From Leucogyrophana mollusca (lineage: Eukaryota > Basidiomycota > Agaricomycetes > Boletales): a stretch of 64,000 bases of DNA. The stretch spans positions 186,001 to 250,000 of the forward strand of contig MU266336.1 of NCBI GenBank assembly GCA_021014945.1. Reading direction: 5' to 3'. Both the position numbers and the translations under genes were made by a program. The stretch's first letter is position 1. Each line of letters opens with the position of its first letter. Shown here one piece after another: positions 25,394-52,200 of this stretch. The notes beneath the pieces are model-generated. The model saw only the letters and a program-made list of their open reading frames with translations. It was not told the DNA's origin and ran no database searches.

Positions 25394-28300
25394 TTACAAG
25401 TAGAACGGTATCCCATAAACCACCGGGGCAGCACCCGTCAAGTACTTCAGCTTGCACGTCTGCCGCGATTGTGCCACCGCCGCAACCAGTGACGTCCCGA
25501 GATCACCACCATCCACCCGAGACCGCCCCACACCCTCTGCGGTCAGTCTCAGCTTATCGAAAACCGCCTGGGAGAACTTGTCGATGTCTCGGTCAGTCAC
25601 ATCCCATAGATTTGCCACTAATGTCGGACTGAGAACACACCGTCAGCGTCTCGGAAGTCACCATTGGCTGCGGACCCAAAATAAAGCAACGTACCATCCC
25701 GCAAGCATGTAATTATAGGGTGTTCCCACACGATCAAATTCTCCCATGTCTTTTAGTGCTCCTGAAGAACACCCCCAAAGCATGGTAGCTGCACACCGAG
25801 GGAGATGACGGATTTTGTGCGACCGCACGTATTGTTCCCCTCCACCATGCCCGAAATATCTGCAAAGCTATTTTTGAGCAAGGTGTTCTGCAAATATTCG
25901 GCATCACTTACACCACAAGGTCTTTGCGTGCCAAGGCGTCGAGGAATTGCTGTTCGCTGGGAGGGCGTCCAATGACACCTTCCCAGCCCACCTCGTGCAT
26001 ATCCTTCAACCAAGGCGCAAATCGACCTTCTGTGCCTTTGAGATCGCCGCTAGGATTGAGGACGTAAAACGTCTTCCGAGGATTGACAATAGCCCGATCG
26101 ACCCGCGTATCTGCGGCATTTGCGCGATCGCCTGAACCCCTTTGCAGTTCCGCGAGCTGTAGCCTATCGAGCAAGAACTCCATGCTTGGGATCCGACTGA
26201 CGCTTCTCCCCCGCAAAACCGGCAGAGACTCCCACGGGATGCCCTGCACGTTCTTATCAAGAACCAAGAACAGATGACTGTCTTCCTCAGGCACGACCTT
26301 GCCCCTCCTCTTCAGTGCATGCTCTTCCAGTGCTGCACGCAGATCCACAGTGACCTGGTCCACATCCACCTCGGAGATTACCACGGGCACACCATGGAAC
26401 TGGTACAAGTCGAGGATGAAATAGACCAGGTCTTCGAGTTCTTCATCTCTGCATTTCGGCGACAGCGAGGAGAAGCACTCGAGGATGGAATCGTCAAGAC
26501 GGGTTTTCGATTTTTGCTTTTTGTCTTGTGGCGGAAGGCTGCGTTTGAAGACTTTGTCGAGTCGGGTTCGCAGATCTGTGATTATCTCTGTTGGAGTCGT
26601 CACCGGTTGACTGAGGATCGTCTGTGTAGCGTAGACTGTCAATAAATCATTGGTTTCAGACCAACCGAGATAGTACCTTGAAAGCGCCCAGCCAGCAGAA
26701 CTCGATATTCTCAAGTAGCTCCTGCATCCGTTTGTCAAGGGCAATCCTGTCCGCCCACCACGCCGTACGAGCCTGAGGGTCATCATTCTTAACATGAACT
26801 GCTTGCCTCGTCCCCTGATCGCTCAGTCTGATGATCTCCCCCAACTCATTCAGAGCATCTTCGAAAGCCAGATGCTCGTCATCTTCCGTCTCCCGCCTGC
26901 CCTTGAGCGGCACACAGAACACAAGCGGTTCGGACTGTACGCGCTGCCGGCAGACGAACATCGTGCTCTTGTCCTCCGTGAGACTGATATTAACGACTGT
27001 CCAGTTGGTGGGGAGCGCTGCGGGGCGCGGGGCGGATAGGGTGGTCGCGTCGAGGGTGTGGGATTCGTACTTTGCGCGGATGGTCTCCCAGTAGGACTTC
27101 AGAGATCTGTCAGTGGAGGAGTCATCACCTTCAGAGTCGTCTTCAGAGTCAGGGGGACTGCGGTTGAATCGCGTTTGGGCGCGAGGCTTCGGCCGGGGGA
27201 GGGGAGAGCCGCTCAGGGTCATCAGCGGCCACTGCAGGTCGTCCAAGTCCTGTACCTCTAAGAACTTGTGCTGGATAGCCTCCAAGAGTTCTCGTTGGAG
27301 GGTAATCGCGGTCGAGGAATCTGTAAAGAGGGTAGATTGTCAGACGAGGTTGGTGGGTGAGGGGGTGGTACAGACCAAGTAACCGAGCAGCGAGGACAGG
27401 CCCCTCTTTTCCTGCTCTGCCGAGGGACGTCTGCAGAGCCCGGATCATCGCGAGCGAAACCGCCGCTTCGCGGACATGCGGGACGTTCCCCCGACGAGAC
27501 GTTAGGACCAGATCCGCCCAGAATAGCTTCTCTGCGTCGTCCAATGCACCAAGGATATCCGTGGCAGGAGCGAGGGCGGTGGTCTTGCTGCTGGACATGC
27601 CCATGGGGATAGCAATAGCTGTGAGGCTACGTGTAAACGCTGGGTCGGGGTTGGATGTTGTGCAGAGGCTACGTACTGGATTCTGCAAGAGAACTGAGGA
27701 ACATGTCTGCGCGGAACTGCTCGTAGACACCGTGGAGTGTGAGCTTCCCCATAAGCGCGTTCTCTTCACCCTAACGCGGCGTAAGAAGAGACAATAGAGT
27801 GAACAGATGACTCAGCGCACCTTTATCTCAGGTGAAGCAGGCAGGGCCTGAAGGCGATCTAGCAAGTTCTTGAAAGCATCATCAGCGTTGTCGCGAAGAA
27901 GCCAAACTACGAGGGTTCAATCAGCGACGTCCCGGCAGGGCCATTTGCGGCTTACTATGTCGGCGAAGGATAGCTGAAAGCAGCGCCGGAACGACGGTCC
28001 CTTGACTTGGCTCAGGAAGGGAAGACCGAGGTGGGACGCCCAGGCTGGACTTCCGTCGCCTTTAACATCCAATTAGTCACATTGTCGACAAGACGAAAGC
28101 CACACGAACCCTCCATCCAGACCCGCAAACATCCTCTCCAACTCCTCCAGCATCGCCGTAGCCTCCTCATAAAGTCCCCTCGCGTCTCCGTCCTCCCCAC
28201 TAAAATCTGCCCGCAGACGACGTACATCAGCAGCCTCCGTCCCTGGTATGTCTTCTAGCAGCTCCGCCGCGCGCCGGACGCTCTCGTGTCCCGCCTCGAG

Positions 28301-31300
28301 GTGACCCTGCAGGAGCTGGATCTCGGCTTTGCGCGTCAGCGCACGTGCGGCCATCGCCGGCGCACCGACGGATTCTGCGAGGTCGAGTGCCTGCTGGGCG
28401 AAGTATTCTGCTTCTCGGGAGGAGCCACGGGCGAAGTAGGCCTGGGTCAGTGCGAGGAGCGTGCCGAGGAGGCCCTCGATCATACGCCATTCCATACCGT
28501 CCATGATATTCCTCCGGGCCGGGGCCTTTTGCGCAGTAAGCTGCTCGGAACTCTGGCCATCCTCTCCATCTGCGCCCTGCTTTCCAGAGACCTCGAAAGG
28601 ATTCGAATCCTCAGCGTCTGGGACGGTCTTGTTACCTGAGTTCGTCGGGGGGTTCAAACGCGCCAGTGCGTCCACCGCGCGGTTCCACAGCCGTAGGGCC
28701 TGCATCATGTTCTTGAGGGCGTCCACGACATTGTTCTACACACATGCCACATACATGTCAGCTAGTTACGAGGGTAGGTAGCGGTGGGTGGCGCACGAAC
28801 CTTAGAGTATTGGATCACTGCGAAGACATGTGCAGCCATCGCAGCGCGCTCGAGGCGCCCCACGCGTGCCCGTATCCGCTGCGCACTCGTCATGCTCTTC
28901 TCTTCAACGGTAGCCACCTCCGCCAGCGCCATGGCCTCGCAATAAGAGCTTGCGCTGGGAGCCGCCAGTCAGGGGGGGAAGAAACGTGTGAATCGATGTC
29001 AGGGCGCACCTGAGGGGGACATTGTCCGCCAACGCGAGCGCCTCGGCGTATCGCAGCAGATACCTCACGCGGACGTCGTCGGATACGTCGCCCGATTCGA
29101 TGATGCTAAGGCTTCTGGCGAACATCGCGCCGGCGCGCTTCGTCTTCCCCAGTTTCAAGTACTCGTACGTGAGGTCGACCGCAGCTGTCATGTACGCTGG
29201 CGTAACATCAATCAGCTCTACTATCACAAGTGGGTGGCAGACGACGGTGTGTCATACCATCTTTGGAGCTGAGGGGTTGTTGTTCGCAGAGGCGTTTAGT
29301 AATCTCGAGGAGTTTGACTTTCAGGAGAACCAGCCCGAGCAACCCCAGCAGGTGTGCATTCATTTCTAGAACATCGTGTCACCACATCTTAGCTTGGTCA
29401 TCATGGGATGTTGTGGAACCAAAGTCACTCACGAAGCAGCCCCAGCAGGCCCTCGAAATTCTCAATCACAGCCACCGCCTTGTTTACCTCCCCATCAGCC
29501 CTAGGCGGGCTGGCTTGAGCGACATTGATCGAAACACTCTGCAGAACTAGCGGTGGGGGCATCACGTCAGCGACCCACACTCTATCCCATACAATCATAC
29601 AATGAACACACGCACCTTTCCTCACGCGAGGTGTGACAGGGGCCTTAGTGGCGGCGACTCCCTTCTTCGTCTGCCGCACGCTCACAGTCCGCTTCGACGC
29701 GGCGATCTGCTTGGGCTTCGGTGACTTCTTCGCTGGCCGAGCGGCCATTGGCGACGTCTTCACTTGCCGAGCAGCCTTGGGCGACTTCCCTGGTTTGGGG
29801 CTCACAGCCTCATTGGCGGACGCATGGGCGATGCTCCTCAAGACCCTGCACCCCTCCTCTGCGTGGTACGCTACCCCCGAGGTCTCCTGCCTGCGATACG
29901 CAAACAAAGCAAGCCAGAAATGTGCGGCGGCTATGTATTGCGGGACGAATGCCGCTAGGGGGGCATCGTGCCCGAGGTCCTTTGGTGGGCTGCGTCAGCG
30001 GGGGCCACGAGATGGGAATAGAAGGAGGAGAAGGGAAGGTGAAGGGAAGGGAAGGAAGAAAAGGAGGATATCACAACACACCTCACTAGCAAGGACACTC
30101 AACGCCTCCCTTCCCAGCTCCTCCCCATCCCACGCCCCACCTTCCCCTCCTCCCGCATCCCTTGCTCCCGCATCTCCTGTTCCCACATCTGCTCCCCCAC
30201 CCCCACCCCTCCACACAAACTCCACACACCTCAACAGCATCCTCGCGCGCCCCACCGGCGTCCCGTGCGCTTCGTAGAACCGCAACGCGTCCGCGAGGAG
30301 GCGCACCACCACCGCGCGCACGCCGTCTTTGCGCATGTGCGCCTCGAGGGCGGAGAGCTGGCGCTCGAGGAGGTGGGCGAGGATGGGTGGTGCGGGCGGG
30401 AGGGGCTGTGATTGCGATGGTTGCGATTGCGCTGATTGGAGTGGCTGCGATTGCGGTGGTGGTGGTTGAAGTGGCCGCGATTGTGGCGATTGAGCGACCG
30501 CCTGGAAACACCCCCGCAGCGAGACTTCATCGGGGCCGAGGAAGAGCTCGCACGCGCCGATGTAGGTGAGCCGGTCGACGATGCCCCCCAGCTGCTTCAG
30601 CCCCGGGGTCGCGTCGAGCGCCTGAGTGTGTGAATGCGTTTGTGAATGTGGGTGTGAACTGACCCCGACCCCCGGGAGCGCATACGGAAACGACTTGACG
30701 CTCTCGCGGAACGCTTCGTACGCGGGCTGTGTTTGCGGAGTCGGCCATTGATCGGGGATGTTGCGGATCGAGGAGCCAGTCATCGGAATAGTAGGAGAAG
30801 GGAGAAGGGAATCAGTCATCAGTGGGCCACCAGAGCGAGAACATGAAACGCGAAACACCACGTACCCTCCTGTCCCCGATCTTCGCGTAACACACGCCGA
30901 GGAGCTCCCATCGCCTGTACAACTGCTCCTCAAGCTGCCGCCAGCCCTCTTTCTCCCTCTCGTCTTCGGGTCCCTTGCCCTCCTCTCTCTCTCCCTCCTT
31001 CCCTTCCCTCCCCCCGTCTCCTTCCTTCCCGTCTTGCTCCTTCCCTGCGTCTCCTTCCACTCCCGCCCCAACCCCCGCCCGCACCGCCGCCGCCCACCCC
31101 CCCAGCACGCACCCCGCGCGCGCAAACGGCACCGCGGCACCGTACCGCCCCGCGTGGTACAGCCCCCCCGCGAGGTTATGGTGCGCGCCCGAAATGCAGC
31201 GGAGGTAGTTCGCGTGGGCGGCGGCGGGGAGGCGGTGGGGCGCGTGCGTTTGGGTTCGAGGTAGGGCGGAGGATGGGGCTGGGACAGAGGTGGCAGGCGC

Positions 31301-33524
31301 GGAGGTGGTGGTGGAGAAGGACGGCGGGAGAGGCCCGCCAACGAGGCTCGTAGCCCGCGCGAGGAAGCGCAGCGCCGCATCGGGCGCGTCCGTCCCCGCC
31401 CGCCGCGCGAGCACGAAATACGCGTCCAGCGCGGAGGTGATGAGGTCCGTCGTCGGTGCATCGGTGAGGAGGTCGGTGTTTGGGCTCTGGGTCCGTCTCC
31501 GTCAGCAAACAGGCAAAAGAGGGAAGAGTGAGAAAGAAATCGCACACGCGCACATACCTCGGTCACACACCGCCCGAGTGCGTCCGCGATGCCTTCCAGC
31601 AGGGCCGTGATGTGCCCGAGCGACGAATTTGGCGATGATGGCGAGGGCTGTGGTGCTGGCGACGATGAGGACGACCCTCCATCCAGCACCCGTATAGCAG
31701 CGCGCCTGAGCCGCTCCAGCGCGCGATCGAGCTTCCCCGCCGCACGTCGGAGATCGTCCCCATCGTCGCCATTATCTGTGTTGCTAGCATTCGTGTCGAC
31801 GCCAGTCTTGCTCGCATTCGTACATATGCGCAAAGCCACGTACCGGGGCAACGCCGCGTGCGCCTCGGAGACGCGCTTTGCGAGGTCGGAGACGTCTGGG
31901 GAGATCGAAATTGGCGGAACGGGGCAGGGGTGCAAGTGCAAGTGGGGATGTAGGTGGAGTGCATGGGGAGAGGCGGAATACGCGATTGGTGAGATGAGCG
32001 GGATGGCGGGAACGAGGATGGAAATGGTGGTGCAATTAGCAGTGATGGGGATGGGGGTGTGAGCGTAGAGAGCAGAATGAGCCGAGTAAATAGAGACGGA
32101 GCTGGGGTACGTACCTGTGCTTGCACCTTCGCTGCCCGCATCAGTTCCTGCGCGCCCCTCGATGCTCGTAGTCGCTTTCACGAACGTCGCGCACACAGCT
32201 GCGCTCTCACGGAAGACAGTGTCCCTAGTGTGGTGGTCGCCACTGGAAGAGGCGGCGGTGGCTGATGAGATTGTGAGCCCTTGTACGTGCTCCGTCAGGG
32301 CATCAACGGATGTGCCCTGCGAATTCGGGGGCGTGGATTGCATGAGGTCCGTTATGCGGTCCAGAACGCGCATATCTCGTCCCTGTTCCACCATAGTATA
32401 CATGAGCAAATAACCAAAGCCAGCCCGAGCAGCGCACTCACCCGCTTAGCGAACCCCATCCAGAACTCGCACAAGCCCACGAATGACGTGCACTGCAGAA
32501 ATTCAGGCGGCGCGGCGCGCACGAGGGCCTCTATGCATCCCGAGACGAGCCCGGCTGCGTCTGTTTCTGTTTCTGTCTTGCTCGGCACGCGCACGAAGAG
32601 CGTCGAGAATTTCTGGGCTTGGTCCCAGAAGGTGGTGGGCTGCACGGTGCCAGGGCTCGTGCAGAGGAGGCAGCGCAGGCTGTACATGCGGATCAGCAAT
32701 ATGGAGCATGGTGAGTGGGCCGCGTCCGGGGTTGCGCAGGCCTTGGTCAGTACGGTGTAGGCGCGGGTGAGGAGGGCGTCTGTGTGTTTCTCGGGGAGGC
32801 ATGCGAAGTGGGGCATCCACGTGACGAGGGTGGGCGCAGTGGAGAGTGCATCGGAGAGTGTGTCGATGTGGTTGTGTGCGGCGAGTGTGAGTGCGTGGAG
32901 GAGATAGGTCGAGATCAGCGTTAGTGCGGTCGTGTTCGGGGCAGAACGGGGCAGGGGAAGGGAGACGGGCAGGGTGTTCTCGGGTGGTGCTCCTGTTAGT
33001 GCGACTAGTCGCGGACGCATTGCCGCCAGCATTGCCAGCGCAGATTCATACTGGTGCACAGTCAGTGACGTCCCTTGTAAGAAAAACACACGCACCACCC
33101 CAAGAGTGATAAGCTTCCCTACGATACTCGACGCAGCGCGCTCTACGTCCAAGTCGTCCGGACATATCTCACGCAAGTCCTCCAGAGCCCTGTTCGCAGC
33201 AGACACCGCCGCCGAGACACTCGTCAGTGTAGCCGATTTCTTCTTTGGCTGCTCAGACGACGCTTTCCACCCAGATTGCACGACTGAGGACAAGCTGTGC
33301 GACGCTTTATTTACGTTCCGCATCGCAGACAGCCTCGTTTTCTCTGGAGACATCGACTCTGCCGGAATCGCTTTCTGCTTGCCCTTTGTCGTGCTCGTGA
33401 TGGCGAGGTTAGCCTCGAGGTTGGCTGCGAGAGCATCCACGGCAGACTTCGCTCTCGACGTCGTCGTCGTGCGCGTCGAGGTCGTTGTGCGCTTCAAATT
33501 CGAGGGCTGCGTTGATTTTGGCAT
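25394..33524 (-). CDS. ESP1: Separase (Esp1-type peptidase C50)
   Basis: This caspase-clan cysteine protease cleaves the cohesin kleisin at anaphase onset and is held inactive by securin. The gene spans 8.1 kb with many short introns, the size expected for a fungal separase of about 2,000 residues or more. The ATG is at 33524 (MPKSTQPSNLKRTT), followed by a basic disordered N-terminus. Helical repeat exons run from about 33,330 to 27,000. The C50 domain starts near 26,300 with SHLFLVLDKNVQGIPWESLP. The catalytic dyad is intact: His in YFGHGGGEQY (codon 25849-25847, formed just after an intron) and Cys in TMLWGCSSGAL (codon 25771-25769). The C-terminus includes VANLWDVTDRDIDKFS and the stop is at 25394. 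A low-complexity insert lies in the middle. Two ACGCGT boxes lie upstream. Not all inner junctions were fixed. Confidence 0.94.
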
Positions 33525-33566: not shown

Positions 33567-33602
33567 ACGCGTCGTGTCATGAAGTGCACGTGATTGACGC
33601 GT
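33567..33602 (-). promoter_or_regulatory. ACGCGT-CACGTG-ACGCGT module before separase
   Basis: Three six-base palindromes lie in 36 bases: ACGCGT at 33567-33572, CACGTG at 33587-33592 and ACGCGT at 33597-33602. The nearest is 42 bases from the separase ATG. ACGCGT is the MluI cell-cycle box bound by MBF-type factors in yeasts; CACGTG is the E-box core of bHLH factors. That these are used in this organism is inference. Confidence 0.5.
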
Positions 33603-42221: not shown

Positions 42222-42581
42222 GATTGGTGGATGCGCAAGGCGATTGGGTTCGAGGATCAAGTAGCTGGTTTGACGCTTACCACCAGAGGGCTTCTACGGC
42301 GAAGCATGAGGGTTACATTAGGTTACATTCAACCTTCCAAGGCGAACAGCAAAACGTGCCCGGGTATTTCCGGGCTTGATCGGTAGGAAAATCCGGACCA
42401 TAAATTGAGGTTAGGGCTTGGCACGTGCTGTGATGTTGATTTTGCATGTGACTGATTATCTAATGAACACGCCAACACGCGGTTACCACGCCTTTGAAGT
42501 TGGTTGTCAGCCTCTGTAATCTCTTCATCAACCACTTCTCACTTTTTTTTTTATCCAGCCATTCAAGGCGTTAGGCCTGAA
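42222..42581. promoter_or_regulatory. Divergent promoter, MYND gene / Polo kinase
   Basis: On the Polo side it holds CACGTG at 42422-42427 and ACGCGG at 42477-42482, one mismatch from the MluI cell-cycle box. A T-rich tract follows at 42544-42553 close to the Polo ATG. Confidence 0.4.
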
Positions 42582-45345
42582 ATGTCTGCTTATCCTTACA
42601 GCCGCATGCCTTCTGCTCCAGCCCCCGCTCCGACTGCGCGACGTCATCCGTTCGCCAACGCTCTCAATAACCAACAGCTTCCTCAAGCGCCCTCTCCCAA
42701 GCCGCAGGAGAAGGTTAAGCAAACTCACCAAGATCCGCCTCTGCCTAGGCAGAATAGCAAGACTACTCCACCTTCGCCTCCCAAGATCATAACCGACAAG
42801 AATCGACTGCTAGAGTTCCATCGTGTTGGTTTCTTGGGAGAGGTATGCCACATGCGGCTTTCAATCTTTAGCTCTACCGTACCCAACCGTTCAACTACAG
42901 GGAGGATTCGCGCGCGTGTACGAGGTTAAAGACGTCCGTGGAACGCGCCTGGCGTGCAAAGTTGTCACTAAGAGCTCTTTGAAAACCAAGAAGGCCAAGA
43001 CCAAGGTTGGTTCGGATTGAAACGAGTGGACTTAAGTCGGACGCTCACCTATCCACAGCTTTACGCTGAGATCAAGATTCATCGCTCTCTTTCCCACCCG
43101 AACATAGTTCGCTTCCAGGATTGTTTCGAGGATGACAGCAACGTTTACATGACTCTCGAGCTTTGCCATAGCGGGTCTCTCATGGATATGCTCCGACGCC
43201 GCCGCCGATTCTCCGAGTGCGAGGCACGATTCTTTATTGTTCAGCTTATTGGCGCATGCCACTACATGCACACTCATCAAGTTATTCACCGAGACCTCAA
43301 GCTCGGTAACCTATTCCTGGATTCCAGCATGAATATCAAGGTTGGCGACTTTGGTCTGGCTGCCCTCATCGAGAACCCTGGTGAAAGGAAGAAGACTATT
43401 TGCGGCACGCCAAACTATATCGCACCCGAAGTGTTGTTCGACACAGCGAACGGACATAGTTTCGAGGTGGATACTTGGTCCATTGGTGTCATCCTGTACA
43501 CCCTCGTCATCGGGCGTCCTCCTTTCCAAACCAAGGATGTCAAGGATATTTACACGTAAGCCTTACGACCTTTTATGTTTCCTGTATTCTTACTCTATCC
43601 CAGGAGGATCCGAGACAACGTATATGAATTTCCGGCTGAACGATATATTTCGTCCGATTGTCGCGACGCTATCCAGCGTATTCTGACTTCTGACCCCCAG
43701 CAGCGTCCGACGTTGCTCGAGATCATTGCCTCGCCTTTTATTGACCTCGGCATCATCCCTGGATTCATCCCACTTTCCGCTCATGACGCTGCCCCTGACT
43801 TCCGCTACATCACACGCGCCATGTCCGTAGTCAACCTCGCGAAAATCAAGAAGGCTGCTTTACTCGATGACGACCAAGTAACTAGCATAGCCGTGCCAAG
43901 CGCTCCACCACAAGATGCTATGATGAATGACTTGACGAGCAAGGCCAAGAACCCCATTACATCGAGCATCGCTCAGCAGGAGAAGGAGTTCCAGAAGGCC
44001 GTTCAGCCTGGAAGTCCTATATCTGCGCTTCTCAGCTCGGCAAGGCAGCCCCTCCTAATGTCGACCAACGGAACGAAGGACTCGCCTCTGTTCAGGAAAC
44101 TACAGGCGGCGAAGGATACGAAGTCTCCGTTACGCAATGTCAGGACGATGCGAGGGCTTCAGGACATCGAAGAAGAGGACGCTGATGCGCAGAAGGGGCA
44201 ACGAGAGAAGAACGAGGACCACCAGAGGCAGAAGGAGCTTGAATCGCAGAAGGCGAGGATTGTTGCCCAGATGGCCCCAACAAGTGTCACCCATATCCCA
44301 GATGAAGATCAAGAGAACCTTCCGCCACTTAGGAGAGAGCCAAAAGGAAAAGAGAAGGCGAGGGAGGTTCGCAAGGAGGTGCCCGTTGTTGACGTGCAAA
44401 TGGGTTCTCCACCGCCCAAACTCAATGGTTTCGAGGCGGCTGCCCACACACTCACTCTTGCTTTTGACGCTAAGTCGTTGGGCAGGTTGTTCAGAGATCC
44501 TCGTGAAGATGTCACCCTTCCAGATGAGAAGGTTTTCATTGTATCGTGGGTGGACTACTGTAACAAGTACGGTATGGGCTATGCTCTCACGGATGGCTCA
44601 GTCGGTGTCCACTTCAACGATAGCACGACTCTGATCTTATCGGCCGATAAGCAGTACGTAATCTCACTCAAGATCTTCGTTAGTAGCTCACACCAGACGT
44701 CTTCAGTCATTTCGACTATATTTCTTCTCGAAGGCATGGAACGGTCTACGTTAGGAAGAACCACTCCGTTTCCGATTTCCCGGAGGACCTCAAGAACAAA
44801 GTTTACCTCCTGAAGCATTTCGAACGGTACATTATGGACCGTCTGTATGGCGACTATGAGTATACCTTCGAAGACATCAACCGCAGCAAAGGAATGGACT
44901 TCGTCCAGAAATATCTTCGCATGAAACACGTTATCGTGTTTAAGATGAGTCACGATGTCTTACAGGTCTGTACATTCCTCTGCATCGTTAAGCCTCTGAT
45001 TACTGACAGCCACCAAAGTTCAATTTCTACGATCACTCAAAAGTTATCCTTTCATCCCAGGGGCTGCTCGTGACCCACATTGACAAGAACTACAAGATTT
45101 CCCGGTATTCACTGAGCGAGATTATGGCGCAGGCCCTGAAACCGCCCGTGGCCGACCCCGACCAGGCAAAATTCAACCAGCGACTGGTCGACAAACTCAA
45201 GTACTGCAAGGAGGTGCTGACGTCCATCAAGAACGCCAGTGCAACTCAGGGATCAAGCGTAGCGGGGAGCGATGAAGATGCTGGCGCCATGGGTATGGGC
45301 ATGGGCCTCATTAGTGCGAGGACATCGAAGGCTTCTCTACGGTAA
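42582..45345 (+). CDS. CDC5: Polo-like kinase (Cdc5/Plk1 type, 832 aa)
   Basis: This Ser/Thr kinase drives mitotic entry, cohesin removal, condensin activation and mitotic exit. Exons 42582-42842, 42901-43005, 43059-43555, 43604-44653, 44707-44965 and 45019-45345 give 833 codons with the stop. A disordered N-terminus of about 75 residues precedes the kinase domain. The Gly loop ([12 protein letters not shown]) is joined across intron 1. [10 protein letters not shown] carries the catalytic Asp (about residue 201), then DFG. The activation loop is the Polo-type [16 protein letters not shown] with the target Thr near 235. Two polo boxes follow a charged linker: the first opens [18 protein letters not shown] and the second covers [18 protein letters not shown]. 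It appears fully intact. Confidence 0.97.
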
Positions 45346-49131: not shown

Positions 49132-49291
49132 CGTCGAGGTCGAGGTGGAAGCGGATGAGTTTTGTCAGCTGGCAGCGGCTTCAGGGCTTTTTGGATAAGT
49201 GGTTAGTTATTTTATTTGGATAATAAAAATTTAGAAACAACAATATTACGCGTGTCCTTTCACGTGCACATACGCGACGCGTTCTTTGTTC
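49132..49291. promoter_or_regulatory. Bidirectional promoter, RPB10 / condensin CAP-D2
   Basis: The two divergent ATGs are separated by 160 bases. The region is AT-rich in the middle (49205-49245) and carries ACGCGT at 49248-49253, CACGTG at 49261-49266 and ACGCGT at 49277-49282, with an overlapping ACGCGA at 49272-49277. The cluster lies next to the condensin start, so it may regulate that gene more than RPB10. Confidence 0.55.
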
Positions 49292-52200
49292 ATGACCACG
49301 ATGACGGCTAAATTCGAACTGCAAGACGAGCTGGAGGGGCTGGCCGACCTCGGCAGCTACGAAATACCAAACGAACAGGACTGCAGTGACCCAGGCTCAC
49401 TCCTTCAAGGTAGATTTATCGCTCCTCAGTCGTATCTGCCAACTGACGTCCTAATAGATGCAGTGGGCGCGGTCACAAACTCTTCCGACGCGATAACGGA
49501 CCCCGCCACATTCGACGTATTTCGCTCGCTCCTGAAACATGCAGATGCAGTCCCAGGGATATATATGTCCAAACTCATCGATGCTCTCTCCTCCGCATTC
49601 CTCGCGCAGATCGACGCTACGACGCGCGATGAAGAAGACCAGGAGTCGTTCATGGCGCATAAGGCGCCGCTCGAAATGTACGCGTTTTTAATACACTGGT
49701 TCGTCATTGCCGCCGACAAGGTGAGGCCGGCCGGCGACGACGAGCCCCCGCCGCCGACCAGGGCTAGGAGAGGCCGGGGCGGGAAGGCTGCTGGTGCAAG
49801 GACTGCGGCTGCTACACGCAAGACCGCCGAAAGCTGGAATTGGATCGAACAAATACCTGGTACACTCGGACTCATCAGCAAAGCACTTCGCCTGAAAACA
49901 CACCGCATATGGGTGACGACTCCTGAACGTGATGCTTTCATCTCGTGAGTACCACACCGTAAAGTGAGATGACTAAACTTAGCCCACGCGCAGGTGTCTC
50001 ACTCGTCCGGCCTATCATATCGCCGAAAACGAACTATACATGAAATCGCAAGCCATCAAAATGGCCGTCTACAAGGTCATCTGTTTCGCCGTGAAACACC
50101 ACGGACACGCCCTCGCCGCGCAGATCACAATCGTCCAGTCGCTCCAGTACTATGAGCACCTCTCTGAGCCGATGGCAGAGTGCCTCGCCGTCCTCGCAAA
50201 GGAGTTCGACCACGCACAGCTCGGGGACGAGATCCTCCGTGAGATCGCCGGAAAGTCGTTTAGTGCACAGGACACGAAAGGGCCCCGCGCGTTCTCAAAG
50301 TTTCTCATTAAATTCAGCGAGGAGGCACCAAGGTCGGTGCTGAAACAGATCAGCTTACTGATTATACATCTAGATTCTGAGGTATGTCCACTTGCTTTAG
50401 TTCCAGGCTTCGCTCATAACTCCCGCAGTCCTATCCTATGCGCATGGCGCTCGTTGAAGTGCTCGGATGCCTCATCCGTGAGCTCGCCATGTCCGAAGAA
50501 CTAACCCCGCAAATCCACAATCAGCTTACGGGGCTGTACGACCTGCTCATCTCACGCACACTCGACCTCTCATCGTACGTCCGCGCCAAAGTTCTATCCA
50601 CCCTTGCAAAGCTCTGCGACCTCCCCGTGCGGTTCCCGAAGCAGCGACTGAGAATCACGCGGGCGGCGGTGCTGATGCTGGAGGACAAGGCAGCGAGTGT
50701 GCGGAAAGGTGCGGTGGCGATGTTGGTGAGGCTAGTAGTGACTCACCCGTATGGATTGATGCATGGGGGCTTGTTGGGCCTTGGGGAGTGGGAGGACAGG
50801 TATGCCGGGGTTAAGAAAGAGCTGGAGAAGATGGAAGGCGCAGTAGGAATGGGTGTGGGCAGAGATGCGGAGGAGGGCGAAGATGAGGAGGGCGAAGATG
50901 CAGAGACAGAAGAGGGCGAAGCGAGGCCATCGAAGAAGGAGAGGAGTGACGATGATATGCAAGTAGACGATGAGTCTCAGGCTGAGGGTGACGACGACGA
51001 CGAATCCATGTCCGGCGCCGACGGCGACGGCTCAATCACCAAAAAGAAACCACGCAAATCCAATCTCAATATGGCGGCCCTTACCACTTCCCAGGAAGCT
51101 CTCCTAGCGCTTCAAACCAACGAGCTGCTCGCCCTCCGCCTGAAGAAGAAGTACTACTCCGAGGCTTTGAACTTCATCCGGATGCTCGAGGGCGCAGTGG
51201 ACGTCGTGGCGCAGTTGTTGGGCAGCACAAATAAGGCTGAGGTGCTCGAGGCGATGGAGTTTTTTAGGGTTTGTTGGGAGTATCGGTTCGATGGAGCTGA
51301 GGTGGGTCTCCTCACCTGTCGGAGTCGTGTGTGCTATCGGTGGATGGTGTGGTGGTGGAGAATATCATGCTAACGAGGGCTTGAAGGTCGGCATCAAGCG
51401 CATGCTTCACCTTGTCTGGTCGAAAGACAACAACTCGACGTCGGAAGACGGGAAGGAACTCAAGGGGGTGAGGGCGCGGTTGCTGGAGTGCTATAGGAGC
51501 TTGTATTTCGAGGCGTTGCCTGATATGGAGCCGAAGCAGCAAGTAAACAGGATCGCGAAGAATATGATCGAGTGAGTCACTGCGTGCTTTTTGACGCCCA
51601 TTGGTCCTCCATCCCCCCGTGTTCTTCTATCTTCCTCCCTGCTCTTCCCCTTGTGACATTCGCCCGCTGTTCACTGACATCATGTGTTATGTGGATATAA
51701 AGGCTTACGTATGACGCGACCCTCGCAGAGCTGACAAGTCTGGAGGAGATGATGCGGTCGATGATGGATGATGGGCAGATCCATGGGGATGTCATCGCGA
51801 AACTTTGGCAGGTTTACAGTGCGTACCGTTCCTGTTCCTTATTCCTTTCATCCTTCTCCGCCCATGCTCTGTCGTAATCCTTCCTACTTCCGACTCATCA
51901 CGTCCTGTCACCCAGGTTCGCCAAAACAAATTCCGCGCTCTCAGCGCCGCGGTGCTATCATCATTCTCGGGATGCTAGCCCTTGCGAAACGGAGCGTGGT
52001 TACAGATAAGGTGGATACGTTGCTTCGCGTTGGGCTTGGGCCGTTTGGAAAGGTGGGCTTCCTTTCTTGGTGGTCTCACCTATTTGTTTGCGCTGAAGGG
52101 CTTACATGGATTGGGTCTGGCGCAGGCTGATTTGACGCTGGCGAGGTATACATGTCTTGCCCTCCAACGACTCAATGGCAGTGCAAAGAAAGTCAAAGGT

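Follow-up and report, generated by a model that had tools for sequence, protein, structure and literature searches.

A CACGTG/ACGCGT pair with a preferred spacing upstream of separase and other cell-division genes in Leucogyrophana mollusca

In the 32.3-Mb genome of Leucogyrophana mollusca (Boletales), the E-box word CACGTG and the MluI cell-cycle box (MCB) ACGCGT occur together with a sharply preferred gap of 4 to 6 bases, and pairs of this form lie upstream of separase and of several other chromosome and cell-division genes. The MCB is the site of MBF, which is Mbp1-Swi6, Cdc10-Res in fission yeast and Mbs1 in Cryptococcus. We consider it rather probable that the functional unit is the bipartite element CACGTG-N4-6-ACGCGT, hereafter the core, and that an APSES factor of the MBF type reads it together with an E-box factor. 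The starting point was a window of 64,000 nucleotides (the whole stretch of DNA that was analysed, C10:186001–250000), for which a first-pass annotation had described ACGCGT, CACGTG and ACGCGT in this order before separase and before the condensin gene CAP-D2. Direct reading of the window placed all six hexamers within the claimed intervals, starting at 33567, 33587 and 33597 before separase and at 49248, 49261 and 49277 before CAP-D2, and the spacers claimed towards each ATG were exact (4 and 14 bases on the minus strand for separase, 7 and 10 for CAP-D2). The features of the two loci are as follows.

25908–33524, minus strand: separase gene; Peptidase_C50 C-terminal at 25908–27222, ATG at 33524, 5′ part putative
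33567–33602, minus strand: separase promoter triplet ACGCGT / CACGTG / ACGCGT, from hexamer positions and shuffle count
33567–33572, no strand assigned: second separase MCB, gap 14 to the E-box, 42 bases before the ATG
33587–33602, plus strand: separase bipartite core CACGTGATTGACGCGT, strict words, gap 4, E-box to MCB
49248–49282, plus strand: CAP-D2 promoter triplet ACGCGT / CACGTG / ACGCGT, strict gaps 7 and 10
49261–49276, plus strand: CAP-D2 relaxed bipartite core CACGTGCACATACGCG, with ACGCG (5 bases) as its MCB and a gap of 5
49292–49948, plus strand: first coding exon of condensin subunit CAP-D2, Cnd1_N (Pfam) 3e-30

The gene identities given earlier were borne out by Pfam, through Cnd1_N for CAP-D2 and through two minus-strand Peptidase_C50 matches for separase (7.4e-63 in the frame 25908–26795 and 3.3e-25 in the frame 26656–27222). 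The 5′ open reading frame at 32352–33524, which had no Pfam match, presumably forms part of the separase gene. The separase core reads from E-box to MCB on the plus strand, so that, of the two MCBs, it includes the one farther from the separase ATG. The claim that one composite is common to both genes held in part: separase carries the strict core, and CAP-D2 falls outside the strict spacing peak and shows a gap of 5 only if the 5-base ACGCG at 49272–49276, which abuts the ACGCGT at 49277, is accepted; its order is then E-box to MCB towards the gene. As 9 bases separate the nearest ACGCGT from the first ATG of CAP-D2, either translation truly begins at a later codon or transcription begins at the box itself. 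The functional flanks sought for the E-box were CACGTGAC or CACGTGAT; separase has such a flank, CACGTGATT on the plus strand, and CAP-D2 has CACGTGCA on the plus strand and CACGTGAA on the minus strand. A relaxed pair with gap 5 was also seen within the separase coding sequence at 28332–28347, which shows the background level of that form. Between the two genes lies a polo-like kinase gene (42582–44813, plus strand) with protein kinase and POLO_box matches, so that three mitotic genes are found in about 24 kb. Its promoter was without the spaced core, the CACGTG at 42422 and the ACGCG at 42477 being 49 bases apart.

The single words occurred in the window near chance density (ACGCGT 17 against 13.9 expected, CACGTG 19 against 17.1), and the ordered triplet with gaps of 2–20 was found twice, against none in 100 window shuffles. 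When the genome was searched, the triplet was found in 5 places and its reversed-word control in 4; it is thus rare, yet not clearly above control, and we rejected the three-part layout of the first-pass annotation as a functional unit. Five uniformly spread sites would give 0.0099 triplets per 64 kb, and the presence of two of the five in the window is an unpredicted coincidence. Among the other three, the triplet on C273 lies inside a VTT-domain coding region, that on C2 had no clear gene nearby, and for that on C31 the closest annotated protein, BV22DRAFT_227851 (100% over 88% of the query), starts about 950 bases downstream, which leaves the gene belonging to this triplet unclear. The surplus of ACGCGT pairs (154 against 108) was likewise weak as evidence.

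The simpler pair behaved differently from the triplet at the level of spacing. CACGTG and ACGCGT with gaps of 2–20 formed 207 pairs genome-wide, and at least 87 of them had a gap of 4–6, against 32.7 expected if the distribution were flat (P 2e-19). For 100 listed of the 101 sites at gaps 3–7, the counts were 6, 21, 26, 40 and 7 for gaps 3, 4, 5, 6 and 7, respectively, with gaps 3 and 7 dropping to background, and the remaining 106 pairs were scattered across 14 other gaps. The peak was also seen among the first 100 listed of the 207 pairs (47 at gap 4–6) and after identical strings were merged (76 of 89 distinct strings at gaps 3–7 had gap 4–6). The two control pairs gave no peak. The reversed words had 46 of 166 pairs in gaps 3–7 against 43.7 expected (Fisher P 2.4e-5 for the target, 101 of 207, against this control), and CACGTG with TCGCGA had 12 of 83 pairs in gaps 4–6 against 13.1 expected. 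The preferred spacing of the core therefore stands above controls genome-wide, and the question of whether the composite occurs at a random rate is answered against the triplet and in favour of the pair. The total number of pairs was rejected as evidence, because target and reversed control were both about threefold over the density estimate (207 against 59 and 166 against 53, respectively); as raw totals separate the two poorly, the argument rests on spacing. With the relaxed MCB ACGCG[ACG], the total was not above control (269 sites against 283) and the peak was weaker, with 30 at gap 4–6 among 100 listed of the 269 sites, where 15.8 were expected.

The base composition next to the E-box and the surroundings of the sites were also compared. 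Among 76 distinct strings with gap 4–6, 33 had AC or AT directly after CACGTG, against 15 of 96 in background; this CACGTGA[CT] flank was just as frequent outside that range (22 of 53). A blastn comparison of the flanks of 35 sites led us to reject a dispersed repeat or transposon origin for most of them, as only two paralogue groups were recovered (L033/L035/L054/L057 and L044/L058) and the other matches were 18–22 bases long.

The form CACGTGA[CT] with gap 4–6 accounts for 42 of the 87 sites, and the genes next to the cores were surveyed at 35 of these 42 (33 fetched and two others). Cores were found upstream of RAD51, a linker histone (H1) and HOP2 (Pfam, with the loci assigned by reading translations), and of an H2A gene (Pfam), which we take to be H2A.Z. 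Others lie upstream of a kinesin whose nearest named homologue is KIF22 (L058), of a haspin-like kinase (5 of 15 homologues named haspin), of a homeodomain gene (E 0.0024) and of a WD40 protein scoring below every family cut-off. For the chromosome and cell-cycle genes, the core ends 35–308 bases upstream of the inferred ATG. Unrelated genes carry it as well, namely PEX12, an aspartyl protease and an FAD monooxygenase, and a mitochondrial carrier shares one core site with HOP2, from which it is divergent. At the other surveyed sites, Pfam and homologue searches gave no identified gene, and any assignment was at most a guess by eye. The earlier idea of an E-box/MCB composite common to cell-division genes is thus supported genome-wide for the pair and not for the three-part layout. 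In a comparison of gene classes, 5 of 10 identified genes at cores (RAD51, HOP2, H1, H2A and the KIF22-like kinesin) fell in the class, against 1 of 19 at random loci (INCENP; Fisher P 0.01), a result that is only indicative, since the groupings were our own, the thresholds were unequal and 25 of the 67 random-list families were listed. The non-class genes among the ten were PEX12, the protease, the FAD monooxygenase, the mitochondrial carrier and the homeodomain gene; when haspin and other groupings were used, P was 0.003–0.004. The random-loci scan covered 101 of the 120 longest out of 1017 fragments of at least 70 residues.

Several further loci came to light in this survey. The four fetched members of a paralogous family without an assigned function (L033, L035, L054 and L057), whose proteins start like MSFHLD, have a common promoter with a gap-6 core, and three sites with identical strings (C96, C261 and C295) may belong to the same family. 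The loci L044 and L058 are duplicate KIF22-like kinesin loci, about 78% alike in DNA and with a core at each; the motor match of L044 is partial with a stop inside. At L051, the core precedes an open frame that has no Pfam match and contains the peptide EKENLHP, which resembles a KEN-box degron.

Three gene families were then approached from the gene side. Of 12 kinesin loci, 4 (C19, C41, C62 and C376, the last two being paralogues) have a core no more than 2 kb before their first motor match, at distances of 79–1384 bases, against 0.075 loci expected (P 1.2e-6). The excess persisted when the two loci already met by site sampling were removed (2 of 10, P 0.002) and when all 25 kinesin, MCM and SMC loci were pooled (P 2e-5). 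At C19 and C41 the core ends 63 and 127 bases, respectively, before the first methionine of the open reading frame, and a fifth kinesin, on C9, shows the two words at gap 14; we take C19, C41 and C9 to be kinesin-14, kinesin-6 and kinesin-8, respectively. The search for cores was negative for MCM genes, with the composite in none of 7 loci within 3 kb upstream, and for SMC genes, with the core upstream of none of 6 loci grouped by family matches. Thus, the core does not mark S-phase or chromosome genes in general; the unrelated genes that carry it and the polo-like kinase gene that lacks it also speak against reading it simply as a cell-cycle box. The MCM locus on C22 has a pair of ACGCGT boxes upstream and no composite. 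The order E-box, MCB, gene was observed in all eight genes counted (RAD51, H1, HOP2, the homeodomain gene, the haspin-like gene and the kinesins on C62, C19 and C41). This count took in only identified chromosome, cell-cycle and regulator genes with both sides visible, and the later 13 fetches, which were longer on the MCB side, were left out. The opposite order was seen at PEX12 and separase.

ACGCGT is enriched in the promoters of S-phase genes in the basidiomycete C. neoformans, according to an excerpt of the published account (PMC5137879). In the L. mollusca genome, KilA-N was found in 2 places over the Pfam cut-off and HLH in 9 places. Because ACGCGT is the MBF site and is enriched at S-phase genes in Cryptococcus, and because domains of both kinds are encoded here, joint binding by an APSES and an E-box factor is proposed. 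An MBF-like APSES (KilA-N) factor would sit on ACGCG(T), and CACGTG would be occupied by an E-box factor, probably of the bHLH type. The centres of the two words are 10–12 bp apart, about one helical turn, which would put the two proteins on the same helical face, where they might contact each other or a common partner. Both triplets of the window would then be instances of the bipartite element in which a further MluI box lies beyond the E-box, and a single MBF-like regulator at separase and CAP-D2 is plausible. The element would lead to co-ordinated expression of part of the cell-division and chromosome set, including separase, CAP-D2, some mitotic kinesins, RAD51, HOP2, histones and haspin; it is present at other genes as well, and replication and SMC genes would mostly not use it. 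Binding, the identity of the factors, their co-operation and cell-cycle expression are what we infer from the sequence in proposing this scheme.

The same observations could be read in other ways. MBF might act alone at ACGCGT, with CACGTG serving as a Cbf1-like promoter-opening element in the same nucleosome-free stretch and without joint binding, which we regard as unlikely. It would agree with the preference of E-boxes near MCBs for CACGTGA[CT] at every gap and with the MCM locus that has an upstream ACGCGT pair and lacks the composite, and the excerpted text of a study in Fusarium describes CACGTGA and CGCGnC as separately conserved promoter motifs (PMC2853525). Mere co-location, however, predicts a broad distribution of gaps and not a peak at 4–6 with edges at 3 and 7. 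The narrowness of that range and the preferred order towards the gene would also suit a single protein, or a pre-formed complex, that reads the entire CACGTG-N4-6-ACGCGT as one extended sequence, in which the two words would not be independent sites for MBF and bHLH factors; we hold this to be quite improbable, as the use of three gaps (at least 21, 26 and 40 sites) suggests some flexibility and CACGTG and ACGCGT are the known sites of two separate factor families.

The two triplets of the window might, finally, be a chance coincidence without function. The near-equality of the triplet and control counts, the presence of at least one triplet copy inside coding sequence and the position of CAP-D2 outside the strict peak all point in that direction. 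Against this, both triplets stand directly before the ATGs of chromosome-segregation genes and at separase the strict words have the preferred spacing, a combination in strong excess across the genome, and we give chance very little credence.

Cell-cycle transcription in mushroom-forming fungi is, to our knowledge, barely mapped. A sharply spaced and oriented composite would offer a handle, from sequence only, on membership of the mitotic programme; it names a candidate partner of MBF, the E-box factor, and it would explain how one MCB-binding factor serves replication and mitotic genes differently. A paired control site before segregation, mitotic-motor, histone and recombination genes suggests that two regulators act jointly on cell division. 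More tentatively, it is possible that the Boletales, or the Agaricomycetes more widely, have a dedicated bHLH-APSES complex on E-box and MCB, whose helical phasing and orientation would set off a mitosis and chromosome regulon (separase, condensin, mitotic kinesins, haspin, and genes of recombination and histones) from replication genes under MBF alone. Each half of the element is already known; no oriented pairing of E-box and MCB at a fixed spacing was seen in the open-licence literature that was searched.

Among known systems, the element resembles the MBF/MluI box in the position of ACGCGT (or ACGCG) close upstream of chromosome and cell-cycle genes and in the presence of KilA-N domains in the genome. 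It differs from that system in the CACGTG held at a near-fixed 4–6 bp, and in that MCM genes, which are classic MBF targets, are here without the composite. Homeodomain and histone genes, at which the element is present here, are described as MBF targets in fission yeast (PMC2726434). The likeness to the Cbf1/Pho4-type CACGTG element lies in the AC or AT that follows CACGTG in part of the gap 4–6 strings and in the HLH domains of the genome; unlike that element, the E-box is here paired with an MCB and found at cell-division genes, not at phosphate, methionine or ribosomal genes. The bipartite CDE-CHR cell-cycle element of animals also pairs two words at a short, fixed distance in the promoters of late cell-cycle genes; its words and factors are different, and the likeness is one of analogy only.
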